Source: Enterobacter sp. kpr-6
GTDB lineage: Bacteria; Pseudomonadota; Gammaproteobacteria; Enterobacterales; Enterobacteriaceae
DNA length: 64,000 nucleotides
Assembly: GCF_900116015.1 (NCBI RefSeq)
Contig: NZ_FOYH01000011.1
Coordinates: 1 to 64,000, forward strand
Direction of reading: 5' to 3'
Below are positions 4,746 to 60,260 of this stretch, piece after piece; the stretch's first letter is position 1, and every line of letters starts with the position of its first letter. Under the pieces are notes generated by a model, which searched no databases, was not told the DNA's origin, and saw nothing but the letters and a program-made list of their open reading frames with translations. The position numbers and the translations under genes were made by a program.

Positions 4746-7532
4746 ATGGTTCAGATCCCAGAAAACCCACTTATCCTCGTTGACGGCTCTTCTTACCTTT
4801 ATCGTGCCTACCACGCGTTTCCACCGCTGACAAATAGCATGGGTGAGCCAACCGGCGCGATGTACGGTGTTCTGAATATGCTCAGAAGCCTGCTCCTGCA
4901 GTATCAGCCTACGCACGCTGTGGTGGTCTTTGATGCAAAAGGGAAAACGTTCCGTGACGAACTGTTTGAGCATTATAAATCTCATCGCCCACCGATGCCT
5001 GACGACCTGCGCGCGCAAATCGAACCGCTGCATGCGATGGTGAAGGCTATGGGTCTGCCGCTGATGGCTGTGTCCGGCGTTGAAGCCGATGACGTCATTG
5101 GCACGCTGGCGCGAGAAGCCGAAAAGATGGGCCGACCTGTGCTGATCAGTACCGGCGATAAAGACATGGCGCAACTGGTGACGCCGGGCATCACACTGAT
5201 CAACACCATGACCAATACCATCCTTGGCCCGGAAGAGGTGGTGAATAAATACGGCGTACCGCCTGAACTGATTATCGACTTCCTGGCGTTGATGGGTGAC
5301 TCCTCCGATAACATTCCCGGCGTTCCGGGCGTGGGTGAGAAAACCGCGCAGGCACTGTTGCAAGGGCTTGGCGGGCTGGACACGCTCTATGCCGAAGCCG
5401 ATAAAATTGCCGGTCTGACATTCCGTGGCGCGAAAACCATGGCGGCAAAACTTGAGCAAAATAAAGAGGTGGCTTATCTCTCTTACCAGCTCGCCACCAT
5501 TAAAACGGACGTTGAACTGGAACTGACCTGCGATCAACTTGAAGTTCAGCAGCCTGCCGCTGAAGCGTTGCTCGACCTGTTTAAACGCTATGAATTTAAG
5601 CGCTGGACGGCAGATGTTGAAGCGGGGAAATGGCTGCAAGGTAGAGGGGCAAAAGCGGCCGCTAAACCCCTGGAAGCGCCTGTTGTTGTTGAGGAAGATG
5701 AGGAGCCGGCTACTGCGCTCTCGTCTGAACACTACGTCACGATCCTTGATGAAAAGACGCTCACCGAGTGGATTGCACGCCTGAAAAAAGCGCCGGTGAT
5801 TGCTTTCGATACCGAAACGGACAGCCTGGATAATGTCAGCGCCAACCTGGTCGGTCTCTCCTTTGCCGTCGAACCTGGCCAGGCCGCCTATATTCCGGTC
5901 GCCCATGATTATCTGGATGCGCCGGAACAAATCTCCCGCGAGCGCGCACTGGCGTTGCTCACACCGCTTCTCGAAGATAAGTCTGTGCTCAAGGTCGGTC
6001 AGAACCTGAAGTTCGATCGCGGTATTCTGCAAAATTACGGCATCGAACTGCGCGGGATTGCGTTTGATACCATGCTCGAATCCTACATTCTCGACAGCGT
6101 CGCCGGGCGTCATGATATGGACAGCCTGTCCGAACGCTGGCTGAAGCATCAAACCGTCACGTTTGAACAGATCGCCGGGAAGGGCAAAAATCAGCTGACA
6201 TTTAACCAGATCGCGCTGGAAGAAGCCGGGCATTATGCCGCCGAGGATGCGGACGTCACGCTGCAACTGCATCTGAAAATGTGGCCGAAGCTGCAACAGC
6301 ACAAAGGCCCGCTGAATATCTTCGAGAATATCGAGATGCCGCTGGTGCCCGTGCTGTCGCGTGTGGAACGCAACGGGGTGAAAATCGATCCCGCCGTGCT
6401 GCATAAGCATTCTGGTGAAATCACCCTGCGTCTGGCGGAGCTTGAGAAGAAGGCCCACGAGATAGCGGGCGAGCCGTTTAACCTTGCTTCAACCAAACAG
6501 CTGCAAACTATTCTGTTTGAGAAACAAGGGATTAAACCGCTGAAGAAAACCCCTGGCGGTGCGCCGTCCACTTCAGAAGAAGTGCTTGAGGAACTGGCGC
6601 TGGATTACCCGTTGCCAAAAGTTATCCTGGAGCATCGCGGTCTGTCGAAGCTGAAATCGACCTATACCGACAAACTGCCGCTGATGATCAATCCGAAAAC
6701 CGGACGCGTGCATACCTCTTATCATCAGGCGGTAACCGCTACCGGGCGTTTGTCATCCACCGATCCCAACCTGCAAAACATTCCGGTGCGTAATGAAGAA
6801 GGTCGTCGTATTCGTCAGGCGTTTATCGCTCCGGAAGATTACGTCATCGTCTCGGCGGACTATTCGCAAATCGAACTGCGCATCATGGCGCATTTGTCAC
6901 GCGATAAAGGCCTGCTCTCCGCCTTTGCTGAAGGCCAGGATATTCACCGCGCTACGGCAGCGGAAGTTTTTGGCATGCCGGTAGACAGCGTGTCGAATGA
7001 ACAGCGCCGCAGTGCTAAAGCGATTAACTTTGGCCTGATCTACGGTATGAGCGCTTTTGGTCTGTCGCGCCAGCTCAATATCCCGCGTAAAGAGTCGCAA
7101 AAGTACATGGATCTCTATTTTGAACGCTACCCTGGCGTGCGGGATTATATGGAACGTACGCGGACTCAGGCGAAAGAGCAGGGTTACGTTGAAACGCTGG
7201 AAGGGCGTCGTCTTTATTTACCGGACATCAAATCCAGTAATGCCGCGCGCCGCGCGGGTGCCGAACGTGCTGCGATAAATGCGCCGATGCAGGGTACTGC
7301 CGCAGACATCATTAAACGCGCCATGATTGCGGTAGATAGCTGGCTGGAAAGCGAAAAACCCCGCGTGCGGATGATCATGCAGGTTCACGATGAACTGGTG
7401 TTTGAAGTTCATCGCGATGATGTTGACGCGGTTTCTAAGAAGATCCATGAACTGATGGAGAACAGCACAAAGCTGGATGTGCCGTTGCTGGTGGAAGTCG
7501 GTGTCGGTGAAAACTGGGATCAGGCGCACTAA
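4746..7532 (+). CDS. polA: DNA polymerase I
   Basis: PolA fills gaps and removes RNA primers during lagging-strand synthesis and repair. From the ATG at 4746 (protein start MVQIPENP) it has 928 residues, identical to E. coli; an upstream in-frame ATG at 4692 would add 18 non-homologous residues and was rejected. The N-terminal 5'-3' exonuclease (about 1-320) has [12 protein letters not shown] and [12 protein letters not shown]. The 3'-5' exonuclease region (about 325-520) has FDTETDSLD. The polymerase domain has motif A ([10 protein letters not shown]), the O-helix ([14 protein letters not shown]) and motif C ([10 protein letters not shown]). All three activities look intact. Confidence 0.97.
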
Positions 7533-7644
7533 GCGTTCAATGATTAACAGGCTATTTATGTAAGTAAACAACATAACTCAGCGATTTTTGTGACAACCAT
7601 TAGAATTCGCTATGTAAAGAATGAAAAAAAACTACAAAAAGCAC

Positions 7645-7673
7645 TTTGTGTCTTTCTGAAAAAAGAGTAGAGT
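7645..7673 (+). promoter_or_regulatory. Spot 42 promoter
   Basis: TTTGTG (7645-7650) and TAGAGT (7668-7673) are 17 bases apart and sit at the expected distance from the known first base of Spot 42 at 7681. In E. coli this promoter is repressed by cAMP-CRP. A weak CRP-like half site, TGTGA, lies near 7590. The hexamers are assigned by position rather than by strong consensus. Confidence 0.5.
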
Positions 7674-7680
7674 TAAAGAC

Positions 7681-7789
7681 GTAGGGTACAGAGGTAAGAT
7701 GTTCTATCTTTCAGACCTTTTACTTCACGTAATCGGATTTGGCTGAATATTTTAGCCGCCCCAGTCAGTTATGACTGGGGCGTTTTTTA
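7681..7789 (+). ncRNA. spf: Spot 42 regulatory RNA
   Basis: Spot 42 is an Hfq-dependent sRNA that base-pairs with mRNAs such as galK and others for non-preferred carbon use, forming a feed-forward loop with CRP. The 109-nt sequence begins GTAGGGTACAGAGG and is nearly identical to the E. coli RNA throughout. It ends in a strong terminator hairpin (CCCCAGTCA / TGACTGGGG) plus T-run at 7758-7788. It lies between polA and engB, as in E. coli. Its presence is relevant to the many secondary-sugar operons in this window. Confidence 0.97.
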
Positions 7790-7804
7790 TTGCGTAAAAG
7801 AAAG

Positions 7805-7820
7805 CGCGGCAAGCGCCGCG
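7805..7820 (-). terminator. Probable engB terminator hairpin
   Basis: CGCGGC and GCCGCG pair around a 4-nt loop. Read on the minus strand the hairpin is followed by the T-rich stretch CTTTCTTTT, and it lies 7 bases after the engB stop. It is a short stem with an interrupted T-tract, so confidence is moderate. Confidence 0.5.
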
Positions 7821-7827
7821 ATTCATA

Positions 7828-8469
7828 TTACTCTTCGGTTTCTTCGACCGGTGGCAGATCGTTAAACCAGGTGTCCAGCTTCTGACGAAGTTTATCGACG
7901 CCCAGTTTTTTCAGCGATGAAAACGCTTCTACCTGCACATCACCATTGAACGCCAGCACCGCTTCACGCACCATATTGACCTGCGCTTTGCGCGCCCCGC
8001 TCGCGAGCTTATCGGCTTTGGTCAGTAATACCAGCACCTGAATTTCACTCTCAACTGCCCAGCGGATCATCTGCTGATCGAGATCTTTAAGCGGGTGGCG
8101 AATATCCATCAGGATCACCACACCCTGCAGGCACTGTCGTTTTTCCAGGTACTCGCCTAGTGCTTTCTGCCATTTAATTTTCATCTCTTCCGGGACTTCG
8201 GCATAACCATAGCCGGGAAGGTCAACAAGTCGTTTGCCCTCAGCAACCTGGAACAGGTTGATAAGCTGCGTACGTCCTGGCGTTTTTGAGGTGCGGGCGA
8301 GGCTTTTCTGATTCGTCAGCGTATTAAGCGCACTCGATTTTCCCGCATTGGAACGGCCAGCAAATGCCACTTCTATTCCAGTGTCGGAAGGTAAGTGGCG
8401 AATATCAGGCGCACTGGTGACAAAATGCGTCTGGTGGTAATTCAGGTTAGTCAAAGCGGTCGTCTCCAT
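7828..8469 (-). CDS. engB: Ribosome biogenesis GTPase EngB (YihA/YsxC)
   Basis: EngB is an essential small GTPase needed for assembly of the large ribosomal subunit and for cell division. The 213-residue protein has the G1 motif GRSNAGKS (residues 38-45), the G2 threonine region TPGRTQ, G3 DLPGYG and G4 TKAD. The E. coli protein corresponds to a TTG start 15 bases downstream (8454), which has GGAG nine bases before it, so that start is a real alternative to the ATG used here. Confidence 0.95.
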
Positions 8470-8727
8470 AAATAAAGCTTTGGGGGATTATACCTGAACG
8501 CCGGGAAAAGGCTGGTTTTCTCACCATCAATGCATTCCCGCCTAAAATAGCCATGGTTATTGTGAGACTTTTGCCATTGCGGGTTAGGGACATTTCAGAA
8601 TAGTTGCAGAGTCCGTTTTTATTAACCCATTGTAATTATGGGTTTTTGCTTTATAGAATTTTCTTAATTCTCGCTTTTTCGCCTGATTATGGGTTGTGAG
8701 ATTACGCTAAAAAGGTAAAGTAGTTGT
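8470..8727. other. engB-csrC intergenic region
   Basis: This 258-bp non-coding spacer carries the csrC promoter: TTGTGA at 8694-8699 and TAAAGT at 8716-8721, 16 bases apart. It also has an isolated hairpin AACCCAT/ATGGGTT (8624-8644) followed by TTTTTGCTTT, which looks like a plus-strand terminator without an obvious transcript in front. No ORF is supported. Confidence 0.5.
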
Positions 8728-8970
8728 CAAAGGCGAGGACGCCAAAGGACATGAACTTACGGATAAGGGTCAGGAGCGCCAGGAGGCGAAGACGCGGATC
8801 TGTCAGGATGACAAACGTCAGGAGACGTTTTAACAGGGAAAAGGATTGTAACAAGGAACGTTCCACGCCAAAGGACAGACAGGGCGAGTTGCAGGCAAAC
8901 ACGGACAGTTGAACCCGTTTCGGGTGGAGAGTTAAGAAAAAAGGCGACAGATTACTCTGTCGCCTTTTTT
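8728..8970 (+). ncRNA. csrC: CsrC regulatory RNA
   Basis: CsrC sequesters the post-transcriptional regulator CsrA through many GGA-containing hairpin loops, which frees CsrA targets in carbon metabolism, motility and biofilm. About fourteen GGA triplets occur between 8735 and 8930. Segments such as GGGTCAGGAGCGCCAGGAGG are shared with E. coli CsrC. The RNA ends in a 9-bp terminator stem (GGCGACAGA / TCTGTCGCC, 8943-8964) and six T. Position between engB and yihI and the length near 243 nt match. The 5' end is set by comparison and may be off by a few bases. Confidence 0.93.
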
Positions 8971-9039
8971 CTTTGCTTGCTTTCTGCTAGATTCCGCCGC
9001 AATTCTATACTGAATAAAACGGCTTAAGACCCCCATATT

Positions 9040-9558
9040 ATGAATAAACCGACAACTGCTCCACGCGCTAAAAGCCCTGGTAAATCGCGCCGTAAAACAC
9101 GCGAAGAAATAAATCAGGAAGCCCGCGACCGCAAGCGCCAGAAAAAACACCGTGGCAATGCTGCTGGCAGTCGTGCGACCGGCAGTGAAAATGCGGCAGG
9201 CTCTCGCGGTAAAGGCGTGCAAAAAGATCCCCGTATTGGCAGTAAAACCCCGGTGCCGTTAGGCGTGAGTAATAGCGCCCCGGTCACCCGTCAGCACAAA
9301 CCTAAGAGCGAGAAACCTATGCTTTCACCGCAGGCTGAGTTGGATATGCTGGAATCGGATGAGCGCCTGGACGGGCTTCTGGAGCGTCTGGAAGAGGGCG
9401 CAACCCTGAGTGCCGAAGATCAGGCGTGGGTAGATGCAAAACTCGACCGCATTGATGAACTGATGCAGCAGCTCGGCCTCTCCTGGGATGATGAGGAAGA
9501 AGAGGAAGAGGAAGAGAAAAAAGAAGACCTGATGCGCCTGCTTAAGGGCAACGACTAA
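9040..9558 (+). CDS. yihI: Der GTPase-activating protein YihI
   Basis: YihI stimulates the GTPase Der (EngA) and so modulates ribosome assembly. The 172-residue protein has the family layout: a very basic N-terminal half ([20 protein letters not shown]), the motif DPRIGSKTP, and an acidic C-terminus with an uninterrupted run of glutamates. E. coli YihI has 169 residues. A TATACT box at 9006-9011 is a candidate -10. A small ORF and hemN follow closely on the same strand. Confidence 0.94.
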
Positions 9559-48518: not shown

Positions 48519-48553
48519 CAACCATTGAAGCATCACTTATGAGGAGATGCTCA

Positions 48554-50677
48554 ATGGAAACGACCTGCGTGCGCCTGCAAAGCGCCACTGTGGATGTGAT
48601 AATCAAAACCCACCCGTTCGCCGAAATTCTCTACTGGGGCGCGCATCTTAGTGATTTTTCGCCGCAGGATGTCGCCACTCTCGAACGCCCGGTTGCCAAC
48701 GGCAAACTGGATGTCGATGCGCCCGTGACGCTGATGGCTGAACCGGGTCACGGTCTGTTTGGTTCGCCGGGCATTGAAGGGCACCGCAGCGGCCTCGATG
48801 GTTCTCCGGTCTTCACCACCGTTCACTGTGAGCAGCACGATGGCTCGCTGACCCTCCTCAGCGAAGACACCCGCGCCGGACTGCGTTTGCAGAGTGAAAT
48901 CAGCCTCGACGCGTCCGGCGTGCTGAAAATTCGTCACGGTCTGACCAATGTGCGGGCAGGGGCCTGGCAGGTGGATCGGCTGGCGGTCACGCTGCCGGTG
49001 GCGGAACGGGCGCAGGAGGTGATGGCCTTTCACGGGCGCTGGACCCGTGAATTTCAGCCGCACCGCGTGGCGCTGACCCACGACAGTTTCGTGCTGGAAA
49101 GCCGCCGGGGGCGCAGCTCGCACGAGCATTTTCCGGCGCTGATCGCAGGCAGTACCGGCTTTAGCGAAATGCAGGGCGACGTGTGGGGGGCGCACCTGGG
49201 CTGGAGCGGCAACCACCGGATGCGTTGCGAAGTGAAGACCGACGGACGCCGCTACATGCAGGCGGAGGCGCTCTATCTGCCGGGCGAAATGGCGCTGGGC
49301 GAGGGCGAAACGCTGTGGACGCCGTGGCTCTACGCCAGCCACTCCGCAAACGGGCTTAACGGCATGAGCCAGCAGTACCACCGTTTCCTGCGCGAGCTGG
49401 TGATCCGCTTCCCGGAAAATAAGCCGCGCCCGGTGCACCTCAACACCTGGGAGGGCATCTATTTCAACCACTCCCCGGCTTATATTATGCAGATGGCTGA
49501 GGACGCGGCGGCGCTCGGCGTCGAGCGTTTTATCATTGATGATGGCTGGTTTAAGGGGCGCAATGACGATCGCGCGGCGCTCGGCGACTGGTATCTCGAC
49601 ACGCAAAAATACCCGGACGGCCTGAAGCCGGTTATCGATCACGTTAAAAACCAGGGTATGGAGTTTGGCATCTGGGTGGAGCCGGAAATGATCAACCCAA
49701 ATTCCGACCTCTACCGCGCGCACCCGGAGTGGGTGCTGGCGCTGCCGGACTATCCGCAGGCCACCGGACGGCACCAGCTGGTGCTCAACCTGAACATTCC
49801 GGCGGCATTTGATTATCTGCTGGAGCGCATGAGCTGGCTGCTCGGCGAGCACGATATTGATTATGTGAAATGGGATATGAACCGCGAACTGGTGCAGCCG
49901 GGGCATAACGGCAAAGCCGCCGCCGATGCGCAAACCCGCCAGTACTATCGCCTGCTCGATACGCTGCGCACCCGTTTCCCCGATGTGGAATTTGAGTCCT
50001 GCGCCTCCGGCGGCGGGCGTATAGATTACGGCGTGCTGACGCGCTGCCACCGTTTCTGGCCGTCGGATAATAACGACGCGCTGGAGCGCAACGCTATCCA
50101 GCGCGGGATGAGCTATTTCTTCCCGCCGGAAGTAATGGGCGCGCACATCGGCAATCGCCACTGCCACGCCACGTTCCGCCAGCACAGCATTGCGTTTCGC
50201 GGACTGACGGCGCTGTTCGGGCACATGGGGCTGGAACTGGACCCCACCAATGCCGACGCGGGCGAGCGGGAAGGCTACCGGCATTACGCCGCGCTCTACA
50301 AACAGTGGCGTGAGGTGATCCATTCCGGCACCCAGTGGCGGGTCGATATGCCCGATGCCACCACCCAGGTTCAGGGCGTGGTGAGCCAGGATAAGCGGCA
50401 GGCGCTGTTTAGCGTCAGCCAGCTTGCGATGCCGGATTACAGCCTGATGCCGCCGTTGCGCGTGCCGGGACTGGAGGCCAGCGCCCGCTACCGCACCACC
50501 CTTCTGGATCACCCCAACATTCAGCTTACGGGCGAGGGCGGGCACACCATGCGCAAGTTACCCGCGTGGATGACCGGGACGCAAACGGTCAGCGGTGCCT
50601 GGTTAATGCAGGCGGGGATGAGCCTGCCGGTGCTCGACCCGGAAAGCGCCATTCTGATTGGCTTTGAACGCGTGTAG
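48554..50677 (+). CDS. rafA: Alpha-galactosidase RafA (GH36)
   Basis: RafA hydrolyses terminal alpha-1,6-galactose from raffinose or melibiose in the cytoplasm. The 707-residue protein has an N-terminal beta-sandwich, a central (beta/alpha)8 barrel with the nucleophile Asp in YVKWDMNRE and acid/base Asp in WPSDNNDALER, and a C-terminal beta domain. FIIDDGWFKGRNDDRAALGD and CASGGGRIDYG are GH36 signatures. GAGGAG lies seven bases before the ATG at 48554; an upstream ATG at 48539 overlaps that site. The length is near the 708 residues of plasmid RafA. Confidence 0.92.
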   Translation: METTCVRLQSATVDVIIKTHPFAEILYWGAHLSDFSPQDVATLERPVANGKLDVDAPVTLMAEPGHGLFGSPGIEGHRSGLDGSPVFTTVHCEQHDGSLTLLSEDTRAGLRLQSEISLDASGVLKIRHGLTNVRAGAWQVDRLAVTLPVAERAQEVMAFHGRWTREFQPHRVALTHDSFVLESRRGRSSHEHFPALIAGSTGFSEMQGDVWGAHLGWSGNHRMRCEVKTDGRRYMQAEALYLPGEMALGEGETLWTPWLYASHSANGLNGMSQQYHRFLRELVIRFPENKPRPVHLNTWEGIYFNHSPAYIMQMAEDAAALGVERFIIDDGWFKGRNDDRAALGDWYLDTQKYPDGLKPVIDHVKNQGMEFGIWVEPEMINPNSDLYRAHPEWVLALPDYPQATGRHQLVLNLNIPAAFDYLLERMSWLLGEHDIDYVKWDMNRELVQPGHNGKAAADAQTRQYYRLLDTLRTRFPDVEFESCASGGGRIDYGVLTRCHRFWPSDNNDALERNAIQRGMSYFFPPEVMGAHIGNRHCHATFRQHSIAFRGLTALFGHMGLELDPTNADAGEREGYRHYAALYKQWREVIHSGTQWRVDMPDATTQVQGVVSQDKRQALFSVSQLAMPDYSLMPPLRVPGLEASARYRTTLLDHPNIQLTGEGGHTMRKLPAWMTGTQTVSGAWLMQAGMSLPVLDPESAILIGFERV

Positions 50678-50719
50678 TGGCGACGGGCCGCGCAGACGGC
50701 CCTTACTGAGGAAAACACA

Positions 50720-51982
50720 ATGAACACAACTGCCTGTACCCATAAAAATAACCCTAACTTCTGGATTTTCGGCTCGTTCTTTTTTCTCTACTTTTTCATT
50801 ATGGCGACCTGCTATCCGTTTCTGCCGATATGGCTGTCGGATATCATCGGCCTGAGCAAGACCGATACCGGGATCGTCTTCTCCTGCATTTCGCTGTCGG
50901 CTATCGCCTTCCAGCCGGTGCTGGGGGTGATCTCCGATAAACTCGGGTTGAAGAAACATCTGCTGTGGATCATCGCTATCATGCTGTTTCTGTTTGCGCC
51001 CTTCTTCCTGTACGTGTTCGCGCCGCTGCTGAAAGTAAGCATCTGGCTTGGCGCGCTCAGCGGCGGGTTATATATCGGCTTTGTTTTCTCGGCGGGTTCC
51101 GGGGCGATTGAGGCGTATATCGAGCGCGTCAGCCGTAACAACTTTTTCGAATACGGCAAAGCGCGCATGTTTGGCTGCCTTGGCTGGGGACTGTGCGCCT
51201 CGACCGCCGGGATGCTGTTCAGCATCAACCCGGCATGGGTGTTCTGGATGGGGTCAGGCGCGGCGCTGATTTTAATGGTGCTGCTGCTCGTTTCCCGCCC
51301 GCAGGCGAACCAGACCGCGCAGGTGATGAACGCGCTGGGCGCAAACTCGCCGCAAATCACCAGCAAAATGGTGTTCAACCTGTTCCGCCAGCGCAGAATG
51401 TGGATGTTCGTGCTCTACGTTATCGGCGTGGCGTGCGTTTACGACGTGTTCGACCAACAGTTTGCGACCTTCTTTAAATCCTTCTTCGCCACCCCGCAGG
51501 CGGGCACGCAGGCCTTTGGGTTTGCCACTACCGCCGGAGAGTTATGCAACGCGGTGATCATGTTCTGCTCGCCATGGATCATCAACCGCATCGGTGCGAA
51601 AAACACCCTGCTGATTGCCGGGACGATCATGGCGACGCGCATCATCGGCTCTGCTTTCGCCACCACGGTGGTGGAAGTGGTGGCGCTGAAAATGCTGCAC
51701 GCGCTGGAAGTGCCGTTCCTGCTGGTGGGCGCGTTCAAATACATCACCGGCGTCTTCGACACCCGGCTGTCTGCCACCATTTATCTGATTGGTTTTAACT
51801 TTGCCAAACAACTGGCGGCGATTTTCCTCTCCGCCTTCGCCGGAAATATGTATGACCGCATCGGCTTCCAGGACACCTATCTCATTCTGGGCTGTTTAGT
51901 GCTGTCGGTAACGGTTATTTCGGCCTTCACCCTGACCAATAATCGCGTAACTGCGCCGATTGAAAAACCGCAGGCAATATAA
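50720..51982 (+). CDS. rafB: Raffinose:H+ symporter RafB (LacY family)
   Basis: This 420-residue transporter of the oligosaccharide:H+ symporter family has twelve membrane helices. Residues essential in LacY are recognisable: Glu and Arg of EAYIERVSR and KARMFGCLGWG, the Asp pair in VYDVFDQQF, Glu in GELCNA, Arg in MATRIIG, and His and Glu in LHALEVPFL. It is very close to plasmid RafB. It forms a two-gene unit with rafA (42-bp gap) and ends in a terminator. The sucrose hydrolase gene rafD that follows rafB on plasmids is absent. Confidence 0.92.
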   Translation: MNTTACTHKNNPNFWIFGSFFFLYFFIMATCYPFLPIWLSDIIGLSKTDTGIVFSCISLSAIAFQPVLGVISDKLGLKKHLLWIIAIMLFLFAPFFLYVFAPLLKVSIWLGALSGGLYIGFVFSAGSGAIEAYIERVSRNNFFEYGKARMFGCLGWGLCASTAGMLFSINPAWVFWMGSGAALILMVLLLVSRPQANQTAQVMNALGANSPQITSKMVFNLFRQRRMWMFVLYVIGVACVYDVFDQQFATFFKSFFATPQAGTQAFGFATTAGELCNAVIMFCSPWIINRIGAKNTLLIAGTIMATRIIGSAFATTVVEVVALKMLHALEVPFLLVGAFKYITGVFDTRLSATIYLIGFNFAKQLAAIFLSAFAGNMYDRIGFQDTYLILGCLVLSVTVISAFTLTNNRVTAPIEKPQAI

Positions 51983-51994
51983 AAAGAGTCACCG

Positions 51995-52021
51995 CTCCCC
52001 ACACAATTTGTGGGGAGTTTT
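51995..52021 (+). terminator. rafAB terminator
   Basis: CTCCCCACA and TGTGGGGAG form a perfect 9-bp stem with a 5-nt loop and four T. It lies 13 bases after the rafB stop. Confidence 0.87.
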
Positions 52022-52163: not shown

Positions 52164-52634
52164 ATGGCCTATATCGCCCGATATTATTTCATCAGCACCG
52201 CATTCTTACTGTCGATTGACGGTAGGATCAGGACGCTGCTGAATAATATTTGCTGGTTCACCTCCATAAATGCCCTCGAAGACGATGCCTCGTTTGAATC
52301 TGATGAAGATGCGTTCCTGAACTGGGCGCAGGTCTGGTGCAGCGCCAGAAAACTTTGTGTCTCCGTTTATCGCCCGACAAAGCCTGTAAAAGCCCGCCGC
52401 CGCGCCGCCCATTCCACCCGGCTGCACAGCCGTAAGCGTTACGAACTGGCGTTCTTATGCCGCATCTCCAGCCTGCATCAGCTCAGAGCGTGCCACCACG
52501 CCAGTGGTGAGCTGGATGACGCCGCATCTTCAATCTCTGTTTTCTCTGAAAGCACAATGCGCTCACGCCATTGTGCTTTTTTTATTGCTAAAAAATGCCC
52601 TTCTAAGGAGTTGATATGTTTATTGTTTGCGTAG
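52164..52634 (+). CDS. Unrecognised ORF in the leader of the PTS operon
   Basis: This 156-codon ORF begins MAYIARYYFISTAFLLSI after a good ribosome site (CAGGAGCAGCT) and a TATACT box. The first part has an aromatic hydrophobic stretch, then an acidic segment (EDDASFESDEDAF) and a basic, histidine-rich middle. Its last 29 codons run through a strong intrinsic terminator (52549-52583) and overlap the EIIB start by 19 bases. I recognise no family. It may be a real protein, a regulatory leader ORF, or an sRNA that contains a chance frame. Confidence 0.4.
   Translation: MAYIARYYFISTAFLLSIDGRIRTLLNNICWFTSINALEDDASFESDEDAFLNWAQVWCSARKLCVSVYRPTKPVKARRRAAHSTRLHSRKRYELAFLCRISSLHQLRACHHASGELDDAASSISVFSESTMRSRHCAFFIAKKCPSKELICLLFA
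52549..52583 (+). terminator. Strong terminator 32 bases before the PTS operon
   Basis: AAAGCACAATG and CATTGTGCTTT pair perfectly over 11 bp with a 9-nt loop, and the stem ends in a run of seven T. The first PTS gene starts at 52616, leaving no room for a separate promoter after it. It therefore looks like an attenuator. Confidence 0.88.
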
Positions 52635-52930
52635 CGGCCTGTCCGACAGGCGTGGCTCATACCTATATGGCAGCGGAAGCCCTCGAAATGACCGGCAAAC
52701 AGCGCGGTCATGAAATCAAAGTGGAAACCCAGGGCAGCATGGGCGTGGAAAACGAAATCACCGCTGAGGATCTGGCGCGTGCCGATGCGGTGATTCTGGC
52801 CACCGATGTGGCGGTGACCAACCGGGAGCGCTTCGACGGCATGGTGAAACTGGAGTGCAGCGTCGCCGATCCCATTAAATTTGGCGACGCGGTGTTTGAA
52901 GCCATCGAACAGGAGATAGCAAATGGCTAA
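52616..52930 (+). CDS. PTS fructose-like EIIB component
   Basis: This 104-residue stand-alone EIIB of the fructose family has the phospho-cysteine Cys9 in ACPTGVAHTYMAAEAL. It transfers phosphate from an EIIA domain to the incoming sugar at the partner EIIC. AAGGAG precedes the ATG. The stop overlaps the EIIC start by 8 bases. With a GH38 gene downstream, the sugar is probably an alpha-mannoside such as mannosylglycerate, as for MngA, but this is inference. Confidence 0.92.
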   Translation: MFIVCVAACPTGVAHTYMAAEALEMTGKQRGHEIKVETQGSMGVENEITAEDLARADAVILATDVAVTNRERFDGMVKLECSVADPIKFGDAVFEAIEQEIANG

Positions 52931-54038
52931 GTTCAAAGGCGGGAGCGGCCCTTCTGCGGGCACGGAAATCAAAAATGCGATCATGACCGGCGTGTCATGG
53001 ATGCTGCCCTTTGTCATCGCCGGGGCGGTGCTGATGGGCATCGCGCGTATCGGCGCATCGATGTATGGCATTGATAACATCTGGGACGGCAGCCACGCGC
53101 AGGCCGCAAGCGTCGTGGTGCAACTGCTGCACAAATTTGATGGCTTTGGCGGTATGGCGCTGTCGCTGATGCTGCCGGTTGTTGCCGGGTACATCAGCTT
53201 TGCGATTGCCAACAAACCCGGCCTGGCACCGGGCATGGTCGGCGGATTACTCGCCAGCAACCTCGGCACCGGCTTTCTGGGCGCGCTGGCGGCGGGATTT
53301 GTCGCCGGTTACATCGTGCGTGCCCTCGCTACCCACATCAAACTGCCGAAAGCGCTGGCTTCTGCCGGGCCGATTTTCATCCTGCCCGTCGGCGGCACGC
53401 TGCTGACCTGTCTGGTGATGGCGTTTATCATCGGCACGCCGCTGGCGGCGCTCAATCACGGCATGGAAAGCTGGCTGATGTCGATGTCCGGCGCGAACAA
53501 AGTCATCCTCGCAGCGGTGGTTGGCGGCATGGTGGGCTTTGACCTTGGCGGCCCGGTCAACAAGGCGGCGGTCACCACTGCGATGGCGCTGCTGGCCTCC
53601 GGGATTTACGACCCCAACACCGCCGCGCAGGTGGCGATCATCGTTCCGCCGATTGGCCTTGGCGTGGCGACGCTGCTGTGGGCAAAACGCTTCCCGGAAT
53701 CCCTGCGCGAAGCGGGTAAAGCCTCCACCCTGATGGGGCTGATTGGCGTCTCCGAAGGGGCGATCCCCTTTGCGCTGTCGAATCCAAAAATCATCGTCAT
53801 TAACGTACTCGGTTCCGCAGTCGGTGCAGCGATGGCGGTAGGCCTGGGCGCAGTCAACCACGCGCCGATCTCAGGCTTTTACGGCTGGCTTGCAGTGGAT
53901 AACTGGCTTATTTACGTGCTTTCCATTGCCACCGGTTCGGCCATTATTGCCTTTGGATCGTTACTGGTCTTTCGTGGCGATGTGCCGAATGAAAATAAAC
54001 CCGCTGCGGTAGCGCCGAAATTTAAAGTCGGGCGCTAA
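52923..54038 (+). CDS. PTS fructose-like EIIC component
   Basis: This 371-residue inner-membrane permease has about nine to ten helices and fructose-family EIIC motifs such as GFDLGGPVNKAA and GVSEGAIPFAL. It translocates the sugar phosphorylated by the preceding EIIB. AGGAG precedes the ATG inside the EIIB coding end. It is split from EIIB, unlike MngA of E. coli, which is a single EIIABC protein. Confidence 0.92.
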   Translation: MAKFKGGSGPSAGTEIKNAIMTGVSWMLPFVIAGAVLMGIARIGASMYGIDNIWDGSHAQAASVVVQLLHKFDGFGGMALSLMLPVVAGYISFAIANKPGLAPGMVGGLLASNLGTGFLGALAAGFVAGYIVRALATHIKLPKALASAGPIFILPVGGTLLTCLVMAFIIGTPLAALNHGMESWLMSMSGANKVILAAVVGGMVGFDLGGPVNKAAVTTAMALLASGIYDPNTAAQVAIIVPPIGLGVATLLWAKRFPESLREAGKASTLMGLIGVSEGAIPFALSNPKIIVINVLGSAVGAAMAVGLGAVNHAPISGFYGWLAVDNWLIYVLSIATGSAIIAFGSLLVFRGDVPNENKPAAVAPKFKVGR

Positions 54039-54124: not shown

Positions 54125-56710
54125 ATGAAAACCGTACATTTGATTCAGCACACCCACTGGGATCGGGAATGGTATTTCACCGAGAACGATTCGCGGGTCG
54201 TACTTTATTATTTCATGCAGGATTTGCTCACGCGTCTGGAGCAGGACACCACACTCGGCCCCTTTATCCTCGACGGGCAAACGGTGGTGCTGGAGGATTT
54301 TATGCGCGTGGCACCCGACGAGCGCGAACGCGTGCAGCGACTTATCCACGAAGGCCGCATTCTTATCGGCCCCTGGTATACGCAGACCGATTTTTTAGTG
54401 GTCGGTGCGGAGTCCATCGCCCGCAATTTGCTGCTCGGTAAAGCCGACTGCGACACGTGGGGCGGCACGATGCCGGTCGGCTATGTACCGGATTCCTTCG
54501 GGCAAAGCGCGCAGCTGCCGCTCTTTTTGCGTGAATTTGGCATAGATTGCGCGGTGATCTGGCGCGGCTGGTGTGAGTACGATGTCGCCAGCAGCGAGTT
54601 CGACTGGGTGGCGCAGGGCGGTCGCGCGGTCACCACGGCGGTGCTGCCGTGGGGTTACGGCTGCGCGAAATGGCTGCCCACGGACGCTGACAAGGCCATG
54701 GACGTCCTGCCCGCCATTCTGCAAAAGCAGGCGCGTTTTTCACTCACTGATGAACTGCTCTTGCCGAACGGCAACGATCAGTCGCCGTTTGAGTACGGCG
54801 TCCCGGCGATGCTCGATGCGTTAAACGAACGCCAGCAGGATTACCGTTTTCAGCGCAGCGACTTTAGCGCCTTTTTCGCCGCGCTGCGGGCCACGAAAAC
54901 GCCGTTGCCGACGTTTAGCGGCGAGTTACTCAGCCCGAAATATATGCGCATCCATCGCGGGATTTTCTCCACGCGCATCGACATAAAACTCCTGAACGCG
55001 CGCCTTGAGCAGTTCGTCAGCCAGACGCTGGAACCGCTGCTGGCAGTGAACATGCGCCTTGGCCTGCCGTATCCGCAGCAGGCGGTGGAAAACATCTGGC
55101 GCGAGGCGATGAAATCCCACGCCCACGACAGCATCGGCGGCTGCAATGCCGATCGCGTCAACAGCATGGTCAAAGCGCGGCTCACCGACGGGCTGGAGAG
55201 CGCCCGGCAGCTGTTCGATCTGAACATGAAAATGCTGGCGGAGGGCATCAGCGCCCGCCAGGACGGTAAAAAAATCATTCTGTTCAACCCGTTGCCGCAC
55301 GTGCGTGACGCGCAGGTAACGCTGACGCTCTACACGCCGCACGCCGATTTCCGCATTGTCGACGACGCCGGAAACCCGTGCCGCTGGCAGTTGCTGCGTG
55401 AGACGCCGCAGGATATGTCGACCATCGTGCAGGAGCTGTCCAACAGCACCACCACCACCTGGTATCGCAAGTGCGAGATTTTGCTGGAGGCGGCGGCGCT
55501 CCCCGCCTGCGGCTATCGCACTTTCTCTCTCCAGGAAGGGCAGCCCGCCGGATTTGCCCATCAGACCCAGGATACCGACGCGCTGGAAAACGCCTGGCTG
55601 CGGCTGGAACTGGAGGACGGGCAGCTTACCCTCACCGATAAACGCAGCCAGCAGCGCTACCCGCATATTTTACGGCTGGTGGACGGCGGCGACGCCGGGG
55701 ACAACTACAACTACTCCCCGCCCGCACAGGACTGGCAGATCACCAGCGACGGCTGCCTGACGAAATCGCACTGCGTGCGGGCGACGCTCAACGACACGCT
55801 CACCCTGCACTGGCGCATCCCGGCACCCGTTGATGCCGCGGCGCGTCAGGCGCATGAGTGCAACGGGCTGCTTGAGGTCGCGATGACCATCCGGTTACCG
55901 CACGACCGCCCGTGGCTGGACGTTGAAATCGACGTCAATAACACCCTGCGCGATCACCGTTTGCAGGTGGAAATCCCGGTCGGCATTGAGCAGGCGTTCC
56001 ATTTTGCCGATCAGCCGTTTGGCCTGATCCAGCGGGAAAATCGCCCGGCTGCCCTGCAACACTGGCAGGCGGAGAACTGGACGGAAGCGCCCGCGTCGCT
56101 GTGGCCGATGCAAAGCCTCGTGATGCTGCATAACGCCACGCGTGGGCTGTGCGCGGTCACGGAAGGGCTGCGGGAATATGAGATCCCGGCGGCGCAAACC
56201 GGGGTGATTGCGGTCACGCTGTTGCGCAGCGTCGGCTGGCTTGGGCTGCCGGATCTGCCGTGGCGACCGGGACGCGCCTCCGGGATGGTTCTGCCTTCGC
56301 CGGAGTCGCAAATTCCGGGTCAGCACCATTTCCATCTGGCTGTGTTGCCGATGGCGGAAGGGCAAAGCGCCGGTTTCTGGCGCGCGGTGGAACACTGGCG
56401 CACGCCCGCCAGCGGTTATCTGGACTCTGGCTGGTCGCGCTTTCGCACCAACCCGCACGGCCTGCGCTTTGCCGATCATTACAGCGTGCTGGCATGGGAC
56501 TGTGCGCTGCACTTCAGCACCCTCAAAAAGGCGCAGAACGGCAACGCGCTGATACTGCGCGGCTGGAATCCGGGCCTGACGCCGCTGCCCTGCGTGACGC
56601 CAGACGTGAACACCGCCGCACAGCCCGTGACGCTGGCGGAAACGCCCGTCGATGCGCTCAGTGACACCGTTGCGCCCGGTACGCCGCTTTCCTGGCGGAT
56701 GGATTATTAA
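54125..56710 (+). CDS. GH38 alpha-mannosidase (MngB-like)
   Basis: This 861-residue cytoplasmic glycosidase probably cleaves the phosphorylated alpha-mannoside delivered by the PTS. Zinc ligands are seen in HTHWDREWYF (His11, Asp13) and in KSHAHDSIGG. The nucleophile is Asp123 in YVPDSFGQ. Overall layout and length resemble E. coli MngB (877 residues, mannosylglycerate 6-phosphate hydrolase), with shared blocks such as LIGPWYTQTD and LLPNG-DQ. Strong similarity in the beta domains is not evident by eye, so the natural substrate may differ. Confidence 0.9.
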   Translation: MKTVHLIQHTHWDREWYFTENDSRVVLYYFMQDLLTRLEQDTTLGPFILDGQTVVLEDFMRVAPDERERVQRLIHEGRILIGPWYTQTDFLVVGAESIARNLLLGKADCDTWGGTMPVGYVPDSFGQSAQLPLFLREFGIDCAVIWRGWCEYDVASSEFDWVAQGGRAVTTAVLPWGYGCAKWLPTDADKAMDVLPAILQKQARFSLTDELLLPNGNDQSPFEYGVPAMLDALNERQQDYRFQRSDFSAFFAALRATKTPLPTFSGELLSPKYMRIHRGIFSTRIDIKLLNARLEQFVSQTLEPLLAVNMRLGLPYPQQAVENIWREAMKSHAHDSIGGCNADRVNSMVKARLTDGLESARQLFDLNMKMLAEGISARQDGKKIILFNPLPHVRDAQVTLTLYTPHADFRIVDDAGNPCRWQLLRETPQDMSTIVQELSNSTTTTWYRKCEILLEAAALPACGYRTFSLQEGQPAGFAHQTQDTDALENAWLRLELEDGQLTLTDKRSQQRYPHILRLVDGGDAGDNYNYSPPAQDWQITSDGCLTKSHCVRATLNDTLTLHWRIPAPVDAAARQAHECNGLLEVAMTIRLPHDRPWLDVEIDVNNTLRDHRLQVEIPVGIEQAFHFADQPFGLIQRENRPAALQHWQAENWTEAPASLWPMQSLVMLHNATRGLCAVTEGLREYEIPAAQTGVIAVTLLRSVGWLGLPDLPWRPGRASGMVLPSPESQIPGQHHFHLAVLPMAEGQSAGFWRAVEHWRTPASGYLDSGWSRFRTNPHGLRFADHYSVLAWDCALHFSTLKKAQNGNALILRGWNPGLTPLPCVTPDVNTAAQPVTLAETPVDALSDTVAPGTPLSWRMDY

Positions 56711-56725
56711 AAGGACGAACACCTT

Positions 56726-58252
56726 ATGCTTACGATTTCATTTCGCTGTCAGTTGCCGAACGGCATTCACGCCCGGCCCGCCAGCGCGCTGGAGACGCGC
56801 GCGGCGGCGTTTCATTCCGCTATCACGTTGATCAACGTCACTAAATCCCGCGAGGCCAGCGCCAAAAGCGTGCTGGCGCTGGTAAGCGCCGACGTGACCC
56901 TGGGGGATGAGTGTCTGCTCCAGATTGAAGGACCGGATGAGGCGCAGGCGCACGCGGCGCTTGCGCCGTTTATTACCGACGAATTCAACGAGAGCGACGC
57001 GCCGCTCGCGCAGCAGGAGACGACGAACCACGCGCTGCCGGTGTTTCTAGCCCGCACCACCTCGCAGTACGTGCGCGGTAACGGCGTCAGTCCGGGCCTG
57101 GCGCAGGGGATCGCCGTGCAACTGACACCATTTGATCTGCACGCGCTGGCCCAGGCAGAACCCGCAGGTGACGTGGAGATCCCGCTTTTACAGGCGGCGC
57201 TGCAACGCGTTCGCCAGCAGTTAGACGACGAAGCCGGGCGCGCCACGGGCGAGGCAGCGAGCATTCTGGATGCGCAAAGCCAGCTTTTAGGGGATGAAGC
57301 GGTGGAGGAAATTCTCTGCGCCCCGCGCGAGGCCCGCAACACGCTGGCGGCGCTGGCCTGTGCCGTTGATGAGTTGCGCCTGCCGTTTCGTGACAGCGGC
57401 AGCGACTATCTGCGCCAGCGCGAACTGGATATTGAAGATCTCGGTCTGCGGCTGGCGGCGTGTCTGACGTCGCGCATCACGCTGCCGGTGCTGACGCAGG
57501 ATCCCATCATCGTCTGCCACGGGCGCGTCACGCCGGGACAGCTTCTCGCCCTACGCAGCGCCGGGTTGCAGGGCATCGTGATGGGCGAGGGGGCGGAAAC
57601 CTCCCACACGGTGATCCTGGCGCGGGCGCTGGGCATTCCTTTACTCTGCTTGGTGCAAGGGTTTGAGCAGATAAACGAGGGCGACGCCCTGATGCTGGAC
57701 GCGCGCTGCGGCGTGCTGGTTATCACCCCGGACAGCCAGGCTAACCGCTGGTTTACCCTTGAGCAGCAAAAACAGCAGCGCATGACCACCGCGGTAATGG
57801 CTGACGATAAGCCCGCCATTGCCCCCGCGCTGGTGCTGCTCGACGCCTCCCCCGTCGATAAAAGCGAGGCCATCAAACGGCTGACCGACAACCTCCACAT
57901 TCAGCAGCGCGTGTTAAACGGTGATGATGCCGAGCGGGCCATCTGGCAGCGCGAAGAGGTGTTTACCACCGCGCTTGGGTTTTCGGTGGCGATCCCGCAC
58001 TGCAAATCCCCGGCGATTACGCACAGTAGTATTTCCGTGATGCGCCTGACGGAGCCGGTCGCCTGGGGCGGCGATGTGGATGTGCAGTTGATCATTATGC
58101 TGACCATCAGCGAGCACGAAGCGGACAGGCACATGCGCATCTTTTCGGCGCTGGCGCGAAAGTTGATGCACGAATCCTTCCGCCAGCAACTGATGACCGT
58201 CGCCACGCCGGAGGCGATGGTGGCCATGCTGAGTGCGGAACTCGGACTCTGA
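56726..58252 (+). CDS. PTS polyprotein HPr-EI(N)-EIIA lacking the PEP-binding domain
   Basis: This 508-residue protein joins an HPr domain (about 1-90; His15 and Arg17 in PNGIHARPAS), the N-terminal half of enzyme I (about 118-350; NGVSPGLAQG and the phospho-histidine His294 in AETSHTVILAR) and a fructose-type EIIA (about 365-508; His425 in VAIPHCKS). The PEP-binding C-terminal barrel of enzyme I, about 300 residues and present in FrwA- or FryA-type proteins of about 830 residues, is missing without any frameshift. It therefore cannot take phosphate from PEP by itself. It probably receives it from the general HPr or another enzyme I and serves the EIIB/EIIC encoded upstream. Confidence 0.88.
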   Translation: MLTISFRCQLPNGIHARPASALETRAAAFHSAITLINVTKSREASAKSVLALVSADVTLGDECLLQIEGPDEAQAHAALAPFITDEFNESDAPLAQQETTNHALPVFLARTTSQYVRGNGVSPGLAQGIAVQLTPFDLHALAQAEPAGDVEIPLLQAALQRVRQQLDDEAGRATGEAASILDAQSQLLGDEAVEEILCAPREARNTLAALACAVDELRLPFRDSGSDYLRQRELDIEDLGLRLAACLTSRITLPVLTQDPIIVCHGRVTPGQLLALRSAGLQGIVMGEGAETSHTVILARALGIPLLCLVQGFEQINEGDALMLDARCGVLVITPDSQANRWFTLEQQKQQRMTTAVMADDKPAIAPALVLLDASPVDKSEAIKRLTDNLHIQQRVLNGDDAERAIWQREEVFTTALGFSVAIPHCKSPAITHSSISVMRLTEPVAWGGDVDVQLIIMLTISEHEADRHMRIFSALARKLMHESFRQQLMTVATPEAMVAMLSAELGL

Positions 58253-58274: not shown

Positions 58275-60260
58275 ATGAATCACCCATTACGGTTTTGTTG
58301 GCCCCTGCTTTTGCTGGCAGGCGGCGCGGCGCAGGCAGAGTATCGCGTCGCATTTATGCCCGATATTCACTTTCACGATGTCTACGGGCAGTTTGCTGAT
58401 GGAGCATTTCCCGGTCTGAAAAACACCAAAACAGGAGAGCAGGCCATCATCCGCACGATGTATGCGCAACTGACCTCCACCCGGCTGTTCAATGAAAACT
58501 ATTTTGCCCTACGCGCCGCGCTGGATGACGCCGGGCAGAAGGGGATCAAATGGGTGGCGCTGCCGGGAGATTTCAGCGATGACGGTCAGCCCTATCACGT
58601 TCGCGGGCTGGTCACGCTGCTTCACGAGTACCAGCAAAAATATGGGATGCGCTTTTTCGCCACCCCCGGCAATCACGATCCCAACCGCCCGTTCACCGTG
58701 CCCGGCGGCGAGGAGGATTTTCTTGGCGAAGGGGGCAAAACGCAGCGCATTTTCAGCCGGGGCGCTAAAGAGTGTAAAGGCTATCAGGGTGCAACGGTGG
58801 TGATAAAAACCGATGCCGAATTGCCGACGATTTGCAGCGAAGAGATGGCCAGCAGCGGCTATCAGGCGATCATGGCGGCGATGGGCAGCTTTGGCATCAA
58901 TCCTTCGCCTGAAGATCGGTACTGGGAAACGCCCTATTCCCGCTATGGCACAGAGAATTACACATATCAGGCGGCGCTGAAGGCCAGCGATTTCAGCCAG
59001 CGGCAGTATGAAATTTGCGCCCAGGGAACGGGCGGCAAATATAAAAAGCCCGGTTACGGCCCCTGTTTTCAGGTGGCTGACAGCAGCTATCTGGTGGAGC
59101 CGATTCCTGGTTTATGGCTGCTCGCCGTGGACGCCAATGTCTATTTGCCGACCGCCACCGCCGATGCTGCGTCTCCCGCGTCAGGCGCGAATTTTGCCGG
59201 TTCCGGCGATGCGGGCTACAACAAAATGCTGACCCACAAACAGCAAACCGTCGCCTGGATGACGGACGTGGCGCAGCGGGCGAAGCGGCTCAATAAAACG
59301 CTGATCACCTTCAGCCACTTCCCGATGGTGGAATTTGATAACGGCGCGGCAGCGGATCTGGAGGCGATTTTTGGCAAAGGTAAATTCCAGTTAGCCCGCG
59401 CGCCGCAGGAAGATACCAGTCACGCGCTGGCAAAAACGGGGATTGGCGTACACGTCGGCGGGCATATGCATTTTAATGACACGGGCGTGCGCCGTTACCC
59501 GGATGGCAGCCAGTTGTTTAACATCCAGGCCCCGTCGATGGCGGCCTACGTTCCGGCGTATAAAATCCTCAGTTTTAAAAACCGCGATGAAATCGATGTG
59601 CAAACGGTGACGCTGAAAAACGTGCCGCGCTTCGACGAGTTGTTTGAACACTATCAGCAGGAGTGGGATCACCTGAACGCCACTCACTCACCCCATCTCT
59701 GGAACAAAGCCATTCTGAAAGCGGAAAACTACTACGCGTTTACCAACTGGCATATTACCGAGCTAACGCGCCTGCGTTTTCTGCCCGAAGAGTGGCCGGA
59801 AAATATCCGCCAGATGCTGTTTACGCTTAACGGCGAGGAGATGCTGATCTTAAGCCAGCTGGCAGACGGGCAGGGCGTTGATAAACACAGCGCCGCGTGG
59901 AAAGCCGCGCAGCAAAAAGCCGATGCGCTGGCCAAAAACGCGGGGATGACGCCGAGTGATTTCGCCCGCTGGAACGGCTTCGACCTGGCGGTGGATTTTT
60001 ATCGTCTGCGTAACGCTGACGCACTGGCATTAAAGGACATCGACGCTGCCCGCTTAAAACAGTATCAGCTTCTCACCCGCGCACTCGCCGCCCGCCTGTC
60101 GCCCGTGGAAGCACAGATCAACCCGCAGAGCCCGTTCGAAGAGATCTTCCGCGTACGCTTTGGCAGCATTTTTAAGGTGATCGATAAGTACCTGCACGGC
60201 AACCCGTCGGGGGATTTTCACATCAACCTGAAAACCGGGGAAATTACGCCGATGGAATAA
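58275..60260 (+). CDS. Secreted calcineurin-like metallophosphoesterase
   Basis: This 661-residue protein has a signal peptide of about 21 residues (LLLLAGGAAQA) and the full two-metal phosphoesterase signature: DIHFHD, GDFSDDG, GNHDPN, FSHFPM and GGHMHF. It is probably periplasmic. It starts 22 bases after the PTS polyprotein (GGAGAG before the ATG) and so belongs to the same transcription unit. A role in removing phosphate from an extracellular mannoside or sugar-phosphate before uptake is conceivable but unproven. No specific homologue is recognised. Confidence 0.85.
   Translation: MNHPLRFCWPLLLLAGGAAQAEYRVAFMPDIHFHDVYGQFADGAFPGLKNTKTGEQAIIRTMYAQLTSTRLFNENYFALRAALDDAGQKGIKWVALPGDFSDDGQPYHVRGLVTLLHEYQQKYGMRFFATPGNHDPNRPFTVPGGEEDFLGEGGKTQRIFSRGAKECKGYQGATVVIKTDAELPTICSEEMASSGYQAIMAAMGSFGINPSPEDRYWETPYSRYGTENYTYQAALKASDFSQRQYEICAQGTGGKYKKPGYGPCFQVADSSYLVEPIPGLWLLAVDANVYLPTATADAASPASGANFAGSGDAGYNKMLTHKQQTVAWMTDVAQRAKRLNKTLITFSHFPMVEFDNGAAADLEAIFGKGKFQLARAPQEDTSHALAKTGIGVHVGGHMHFNDTGVRRYPDGSQLFNIQAPSMAAYVPAYKILSFKNRDEIDVQTVTLKNVPRFDELFEHYQQEWDHLNATHSPHLWNKAILKAENYYAFTNWHITELTRLRFLPEEWPENIRQMLFTLNGEEMLILSQLADGQGVDKHSAAWKAAQQKADALAKNAGMTPSDFARWNGFDLAVDFYRLRNADALALKDIDAARLKQYQLLTRALAARLSPVEAQINPQSPFEEIFRVRFGSIFKVIDKYLHGNPSGDFHINLKTGEITPME

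Follow-up and report, generated by a model that had tools for sequence, protein, structure and literature searches.

In the textbook flow of the phosphotransferase system (PTS), the phosphoryl group passes from enzyme I (EI) to HPr and on to EIIA. Multiphosphoryl transfer proteins (MTPs) of the FrwA/FryA type combine an N-terminal HPr, a complete EI and a C-terminal EIIA of the fructose class (EIIA-Fru) in one chain. DhaM (YcgC), the phosphoryl donor subunit of dihydroxyacetone kinase, has HPr, the EI N-domain (EIN) and EIIA and lacks PF02896, the phosphoenolpyruvate (PEP)-binding domain of EI (one DhaM was scanned); it is reportedly phosphorylated through EI and HPr. Proteins with EIN but without a PEP site pose the question of the role of EIN. 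Here we describe such a protein of 508 amino acids, an HPr-EIN-EIIA(Fru) polyprotein encoded in a 64,000-nucleotide stretch of Enterobacter sp. kpr-6 (contig NZ_FOYH01000011.1, positions 1 to 64,000; the whole stretch is called the window). Sequence comparison indicates that it descends from a full-length HPr-EI-EIIA MTP by in-frame loss of the PEP-binding domain. We regard it as fairly probable that it is a reduced MTP without PEP use of its own that draws phosphate from the general PTS, its EIN acting as an adaptor that links soluble HPr to the fused HPr.

Pfam placed PF05524 and PF00391 at residues 117–232 and 259–329, as the two halves of EIN, and PF00359 at 368–503 in EIIA; PF00381 was present in HPr (Table 1), and PF02896 was not listed at E ≤ 1. 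His15, His294 and His425 align with the corresponding histidines in full-length relatives, and His294 with His189 of the host PtsI. The domain search and alignments bore out the first-pass annotation, made from the letters of the window, which had described HPr, EIN and EIIA modules with three phospho-histidines in one intact frame and no PEP-binding domain. The AlphaFold model (12 sequences) has a mean pLDDT of 85.1 and a pTM of 0.73, and its parts match solved structures of EI and EIN, EIIA-Ntr, and HPr. The protein thus has the FrwA/FryA-type order of N-terminal HPr, EIN and C-terminal EIIA-Fru without a complete EI.

The proteins compared below fall into four groups: short proteins of the window type (A), full-length proteins in the same operon (B), a second short lineage (C), and other full-length MTPs (D). 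A search of 392 genomes of the host's family (E ≤ 1e-60) gave matches in 22. Eight belong to group A, the host and seven others at 55–60% identity, one of which (G213) has an internal stop; ten belong to group B, with full-length frames of 830–903 amino acids; and four belong to group C, with another short protein at 32–35% identity. A scan of named genomes gave no match with a single protein as query and 12 loci with an alignment as query, all of the short form, with matches of 1521–1554 bases over nearly the whole query. They come from Providencia (4), Chimaeribacter (3), Cedecea (2), Enterobacter sp. (2) and Enterobacteriaceae bacterium RIT693 (1); six of them (L069, L071, L075–L078) are the same records as six group A family genomes, and the counts are therefore not additive. 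The order EIIB-EIIC-GH38-short protein was found in all 12 named loci, in the seven other group A genomes read, and on the complete Chimaeribacter arupi plasmid p251, where the short protein carries the RefSeq label "HPr family phosphocarrier protein". An assembly artefact was ruled out, since the same deletion is present in 12/12 named-genome relatives and on the complete plasmid. Decay was also ruled out: the reading frame is single and open in 11 of the 12 named loci, and the ratio of nonsynonymous to synonymous substitution (dN/dS) of EIN is well under 1, with HPr and EIIA likewise under constraint. The earlier claim of a clean loss without decay is thus supported by purifying selection across several genera. 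All 18 truncated A and C proteins keep His15, His294 and His425, as does the protein of C. coloradensis, which is not counted among the 18.

Common descent with full-length FrwA/FryA-type proteins was supported by gene order, alignment and phylogeny. Domain order, EIIA class and the fructose-class EIIB and EIIC partners are shared with these MTPs, and all nine group B neighbourhoods read (of 10 genomes) have this operon, there encoding a full-length protein. The group B proteins are 45–52% identical to the window protein over HPr-EIN. At the EIN-EIIA linker, the alignment contains 312–316 extra residues in nine B rows and 317–318 in five D rows; this segment, missing in the window protein, is PF02896 in both B proteins tested, and PF02896 was found in 3/3 full-length relatives scanned. 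Trees of 28 proteins were built from two alignments, HPr+EIN and HPr+EIN+EIIA. In both, A and B form a single branch (support 100/100). Group A itself is a single branch (100/97 and 100/99) that groups with seven of the nine B rows, apart from the other two (92/93; 97/97). Group C forms one branch with full-length MTPs whose genes lie close to those of three group C proteins (100/100 in both trees), and a single origin of groups A and C was ruled out (approximately unbiased test, p-AU 1.5e-8). The placement of FryA_own, on a long branch, is unsure, and the A-with-B and C-with-neighbour branches are independent of it. Because A falls with B, C falls with its own full-length MTPs and the constraint joining A and C was rejected, the PEP-binding domain (~315 residues) was lost at least twice independently, at the same linker. 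One genome (G067) carries a double PTS cluster with two full-length MTPs (L103:6621–17832), organized as in group C with a full-length protein in the slot of the short one (6621–9113). By gene order, this cluster resembles the state of the group C clusters before deletion, one of whose two MTPs lacks the PEP-binding domain.

The conservation of EIN was compared between truncated and full-length proteins for two contact sets mapped through the host PtsI. The HPr-contact set was taken from the residues listed for a modelled Streptomyces coelicolor EIN:HPr complex, for which the E. coli complex served as the basis (PMC3724859); of 28 residues, Val102, Phe106 and Leu113 were omitted for unsure E. 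coli numbers and Asp129 was added from the text, giving 26. The set for the EI C-domain (EIC), the PEP-barrel face, comprises all 17 residues that sense the C-domain by nuclear magnetic resonance, numbered as in PMC5537066. Group D was represented by nine rows, leaving out the two other MTPs of the host as well as L079 and L080. The HPr-contact columns were more conserved in the truncated proteins, at 0.772 in A vs 0.685 in B (+0.087) and 0.812 in C vs 0.792 in D (+0.020). The rest of EIN fell (A 0.527 vs B 0.582, −0.054; C 0.514 vs D 0.610, −0.096), as did the EIC-contact columns (A 0.646 vs B 0.806, −0.159; C 0.565 vs D 0.783, −0.218). The HPr-contact gain went beyond that of conservation-matched columns (p 0.0004 for A–B and 0.001 for C–D, a guide only, as columns are not independent). 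Among circular shifts, a gain as high was seen in 5/228 (A–B), 1/228 (C–D) and 11/228 with thinned A and B sets. The helical subdomain of EIN partly behaves like the contacts, its non-contact part changing by +0.027 (A–B) and −0.043 (C–D). Individual sites follow the same trend: Arg300 is intact in 22/22 full-length proteins and lost in 5/18 truncated ones, Gly290 is lost in 7/18 truncated proteins, and His294 in none. This conservation pattern suggests that EIN is not a relic in the present proteins, and the positions under selection suggest a transfer from one HPr to another.

A similar pattern was observed in DhaM, where His189 and most of the HPr face are kept and several residues of the PEP-barrel face are lost. 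Of 28 loci, 26 (L110–L135, from the host's family) were used; L136 was too short, and L137 is full-length. His189 is present in 26/26 and Tyr122, Arg126 and Asp129 in 25/26, with Arg195 in 12/26 and Gly185 in 1/26. The full-length DhaM-like L137 keeps the GGATSH motif and the arginine; it is the only full-length comparator for the losses on the PEP-barrel face of DhaM. Conservation within DhaM EIN was 0.580 in the HPr-contact columns, 0.379 on the C-domain face and 0.366 in the rest, and 5/227 circular shifts reached as high an HPr-contact value. A class search for DhaM gave 0/229.

The possible phosphate sources were examined by PF02896 searches. The host has five matches, in frames of 578, 877, 752, 839 and 795 amino acids, taken by size and neighbours as PtsI, an MTP, PtsP, a second MTP and PpsA; an HPr-like frame adjoins PtsI. 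Each of the seven other group A genomes has exactly three matches, in frames of 578, 752 and 797–811 amino acids, fitting PtsI, PtsP and PpsA. PtsI and PtsP are thus the only PTS phosphate sources seen in these seven, and no other MTP was found in seven of the eight group A genomes searched. A free EI C-domain was found neither in the host nor in any of the seven others, and C-domain supply in trans, one of two feeders proposed in the first-pass annotation, was rejected for these genomes. The other, the general PTS, is supported and would be the source of the phosphate. Among the four group C genomes, three have PF02896 only in frames of 578–894 amino acids. The fourth (G363) additionally has two pieces, in frames of 354 and 530 amino acids, from a frameshifted neighbouring MTP; several neighbouring genes there, among them that of the full-length MTP, are split into separate frames (L053/L104), more likely through assembly errors than real decay. 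Catalytic EI and HPr in the presence of excess PEP convert isolated EIN of T. tengcongensis into its phosphorylated form (PMC8295985), which is the first step needed in the flow proposed here.

In the favoured scheme, PEP would phosphorylate PtsI, and PtsI soluble HPr. Soluble HPr would then phosphorylate His294 of EIN, retained as the adaptor between soluble and fused HPr, and the group would pass to His15 of the fused HPr, to His425 of EIIA, to EIIB and, through EIIC, to the sugar. The GH38 enzyme would act on the imported mannoside. Several observations weigh against this scheme. No biochemistry of the 508-residue protein was found in the literature. EIN as a whole is less conserved in the truncated proteins (A 0.564 vs B 0.610; C 0.552 vs D 0.644), and its dN/dS was 0.15–0.25 in eight close A pairs and 0.29, at dS 1.1, between the window and L038, vs 0.08–0.22 in six B pairs. 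Arg300 (Arg195 in PtsI) is lost in 5/18 truncated proteins. Glu68, an HPr contact, is kept in 1/26 DhaM. The fall in the EIC-contact columns does not exceed that of conservation-matched columns (p 0.44 for A–B, 0.15 for C–D), so a special release of the EIC face was not borne out. In C. coloradensis (L069:8001–9542 and L037), a TAG stop lies in the EIN-EIIA linker and leaves HPr-EIN (354 amino acids) and EIIA (160 codons) otherwise readable, which could be a natural split into two proteins or an early pseudogene. Finally, PtsI might phosphorylate the fused HPr directly, with EIN as a passenger.

We consider this passenger role unlikely. According to it, phosphate would go from PtsI to the fused HPr and on to EIIA, and EIN, persisting as a mere spacer or to assist folding, would be in the course of being lost, as happened to the whole EI of FruB/FPr. 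The slightly lower overall conservation of EIN and the drift at position 300 are as expected from it, and a docking site kept just for binding the fused HPr would show nearly the same pattern as an adaptor. A mere spacer would need neither the histidine nor the HPr face, yet His294 is unchanged in 18/18 truncated proteins and the matching histidine in 26/26 DhaM, and the HPr-contact columns are specifically kept in A and C; in DhaM EIN they rank highest in conservation among the three sets of columns. Alternatively, PEP might phosphorylate His294 directly if EIN were served in trans by a C-domain belonging to PtsI or to a full-length MTP; complementation of EIN by a cloned EIC has reportedly been described, going by a 1998 title (Fomenkov). 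This seems very unlikely, given that 8/8 group A genomes have no free C-domain and that a kept EIC partner would predict EIC-contact columns that are held, whereas in A and C their conservation drops as it does in comparable columns, and in DhaM they lie near the rest of EIN. Least probable is a reservoir or regulatory sensor off the main transport path, in which EIN and HPr would store phosphate and control how far EIIA, or a regulator, is phosphorylated. The presence of three phospho-histidines in a single chain would suit it, as would the reversible exchange between EIN and HPr, which is general PTS chemistry, but the protein carries the operon's own EIIA, and none of the four operon genes encodes a regulator.

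If the adaptor reading is extended to DhaM, a broader view becomes plausible, although we hold it with less than even confidence: EIN, otherwise the front half of an enzyme that uses PEP, may be convertible into a free-standing HPr-to-HPr phosphate adaptor. This state may have had at least three separate origins (in groups A and C and in DhaM), and in each the PEP barrel would have been dropped while the histidine and the HPr-docking face were retained. This would define a general, overlooked class of PTS relay. The HPr-to-HPr step was not found assigned to any protein in the parts of the literature available to us. The convergent loss in relatives suggests that such proteins have come to depend on the central phosphate supply of the cell. 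With two independent losses beside DhaM and uncut relatives extant in transport operons, forms of one operon that have the PEP barrel can be set beside forms that lack it.

The gene is the fourth in a tight operon, 15 bases after the GH38 mannosidase gene (Table 1). Of the four products, which include EIIB and EIIC, no other has an EIIA domain, so the protein is the operon's own EIIA. The GH38 protein is below the cut-off of the mannosylglycerate hydrolase model, and the substrate of the operon may thus differ from that of MngA/MngB.

Table 1 Features of the HPr-EIN-EIIA gene and its operon in the window.
Feature	Position	Strand	Details
PTS EIIB, fructose class, operon gene 1	52616..52930	+	fructose-class model match
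PTS EIIC, fructose class	52923..54038	+	fructose-class model match
GH38 alpha-mannosidase	54125..56710	+	nearest NCBIfam model mannosylglycerate hydrolase, 801 bits, under cut-off 1138
HPr-EIN-EIIA(Fru) polyprotein without EI PEP-binding domain, 508 aa	56726..58252	+	Pfam, single intact frame
HPr domain, PF00381, residues 5–84	56738..56977	+	phospho-His15 codon 56768–56770
EIN, residues 117–345	57074..57760	+	phospho-His294 codon 57605–57607
Linker, residues 346–365	57761..57820	+	position of PEP-binding domain in full-length relatives
EIIA, fructose class, residues 366–508	57821..58249	+	phospho-His425 codon 57998–58000; Pfam, alignment

A calcineurin-like phosphoesterase is encoded downstream of the operon (58275–60260); one also follows it in Chimaeribacter, in a single group B genome (L046) and, some 1 kb further away, in Providencia, and none was matched in the Cedecea stretches read. 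On the plasmid of C. arupi DSM 115072 the GH38 gene (L001:5398–7930) is annotated as two pieces, and it gives a single match in the C. arupi genome behind L078. Just upstream of the operon, on the same strand, lie genes for a GH36 alpha-galactosidase and a LacY-type permease (48539–51982), apparently a separate alpha-galactoside uptake unit; a terminator-like hairpin at 51994–52018, just 3' of the LacY-type gene, fits this separation. Terminator-like sites in the window numbered 13 vs 7.5 expected, while promoter-like sites (1 vs 2.2 expected) and CRP-like sites (20 vs 20.7) were not above chance.

Beyond the family, a class search (369 genomes, E ≤ 1e-25) matched three genomes, the host and two in which only HPr-EIN was covered, with frames of 687 and 693 amino acids and stops. 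An order search (394 genomes, E ≤ 1e-55) matched five, the host and four with frames of 830–903 amino acids. The protein is accessory in the host genus, because only one of the four genomes of the genus has the gene. No place over 80% of the gene was found in 5426 E. coli genomes (distant blastn). Among plasmids 131 records match, and among the 40 matches listed only Chimaeribacter arupi and Pantoea sp. At-9b have a single-piece full-length one. Among phages 37 records match; of the five matches listed, only a Salmonella record covers most of the query, in two pieces.

The operon resembles the E. coli 2-O-alpha-mannosylglycerate system MngA/MngB, in which the gene of a fructose-class PTS adjoins that of a GH38 enzyme. 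MngA is a fused IIABC (by its model name), whereas EIIB, EIIC and HPr-EIN-EIIA are separate proteins here. DhaM shares HPr and EIN without PF02896 with the window protein, but its EIIA is of the mannose class (PF03610) and N-terminal, whereas that of the window protein is PF00359 and C-terminal. The partners of DhaM are DhaK and DhaL, and the neighbours of the window protein are EIIB, EIIC, GH38 and a metallophosphoesterase; against the DhaM model NF008478 the window protein scored 103.6 bits, below the cut-off of 520. FruB/FPr (EIIA-M-HPr) of the fructose PTS is fed by PtsI. A 2008 study proposed that MTPs of these bacteria underwent reduction, with FruB/FPr as an MTP reduced after takeover by the general PTS (PMC2405797). 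FPr lacks the whole EI domain (PMC2405797), whereas the window protein keeps EIN with its histidine. The novelty claimed in the first-pass annotation therefore stands in part: no description of the HPr-EIN-EIIA(Fru) order was found in the available text of open-licence papers, and this order appears to be new, while HPr with EIN and no PEP barrel was already known from DhaM. The present proteins extend MTP reduction (Comas et al.) to MTPs with a C-terminal EIIA-Fru.
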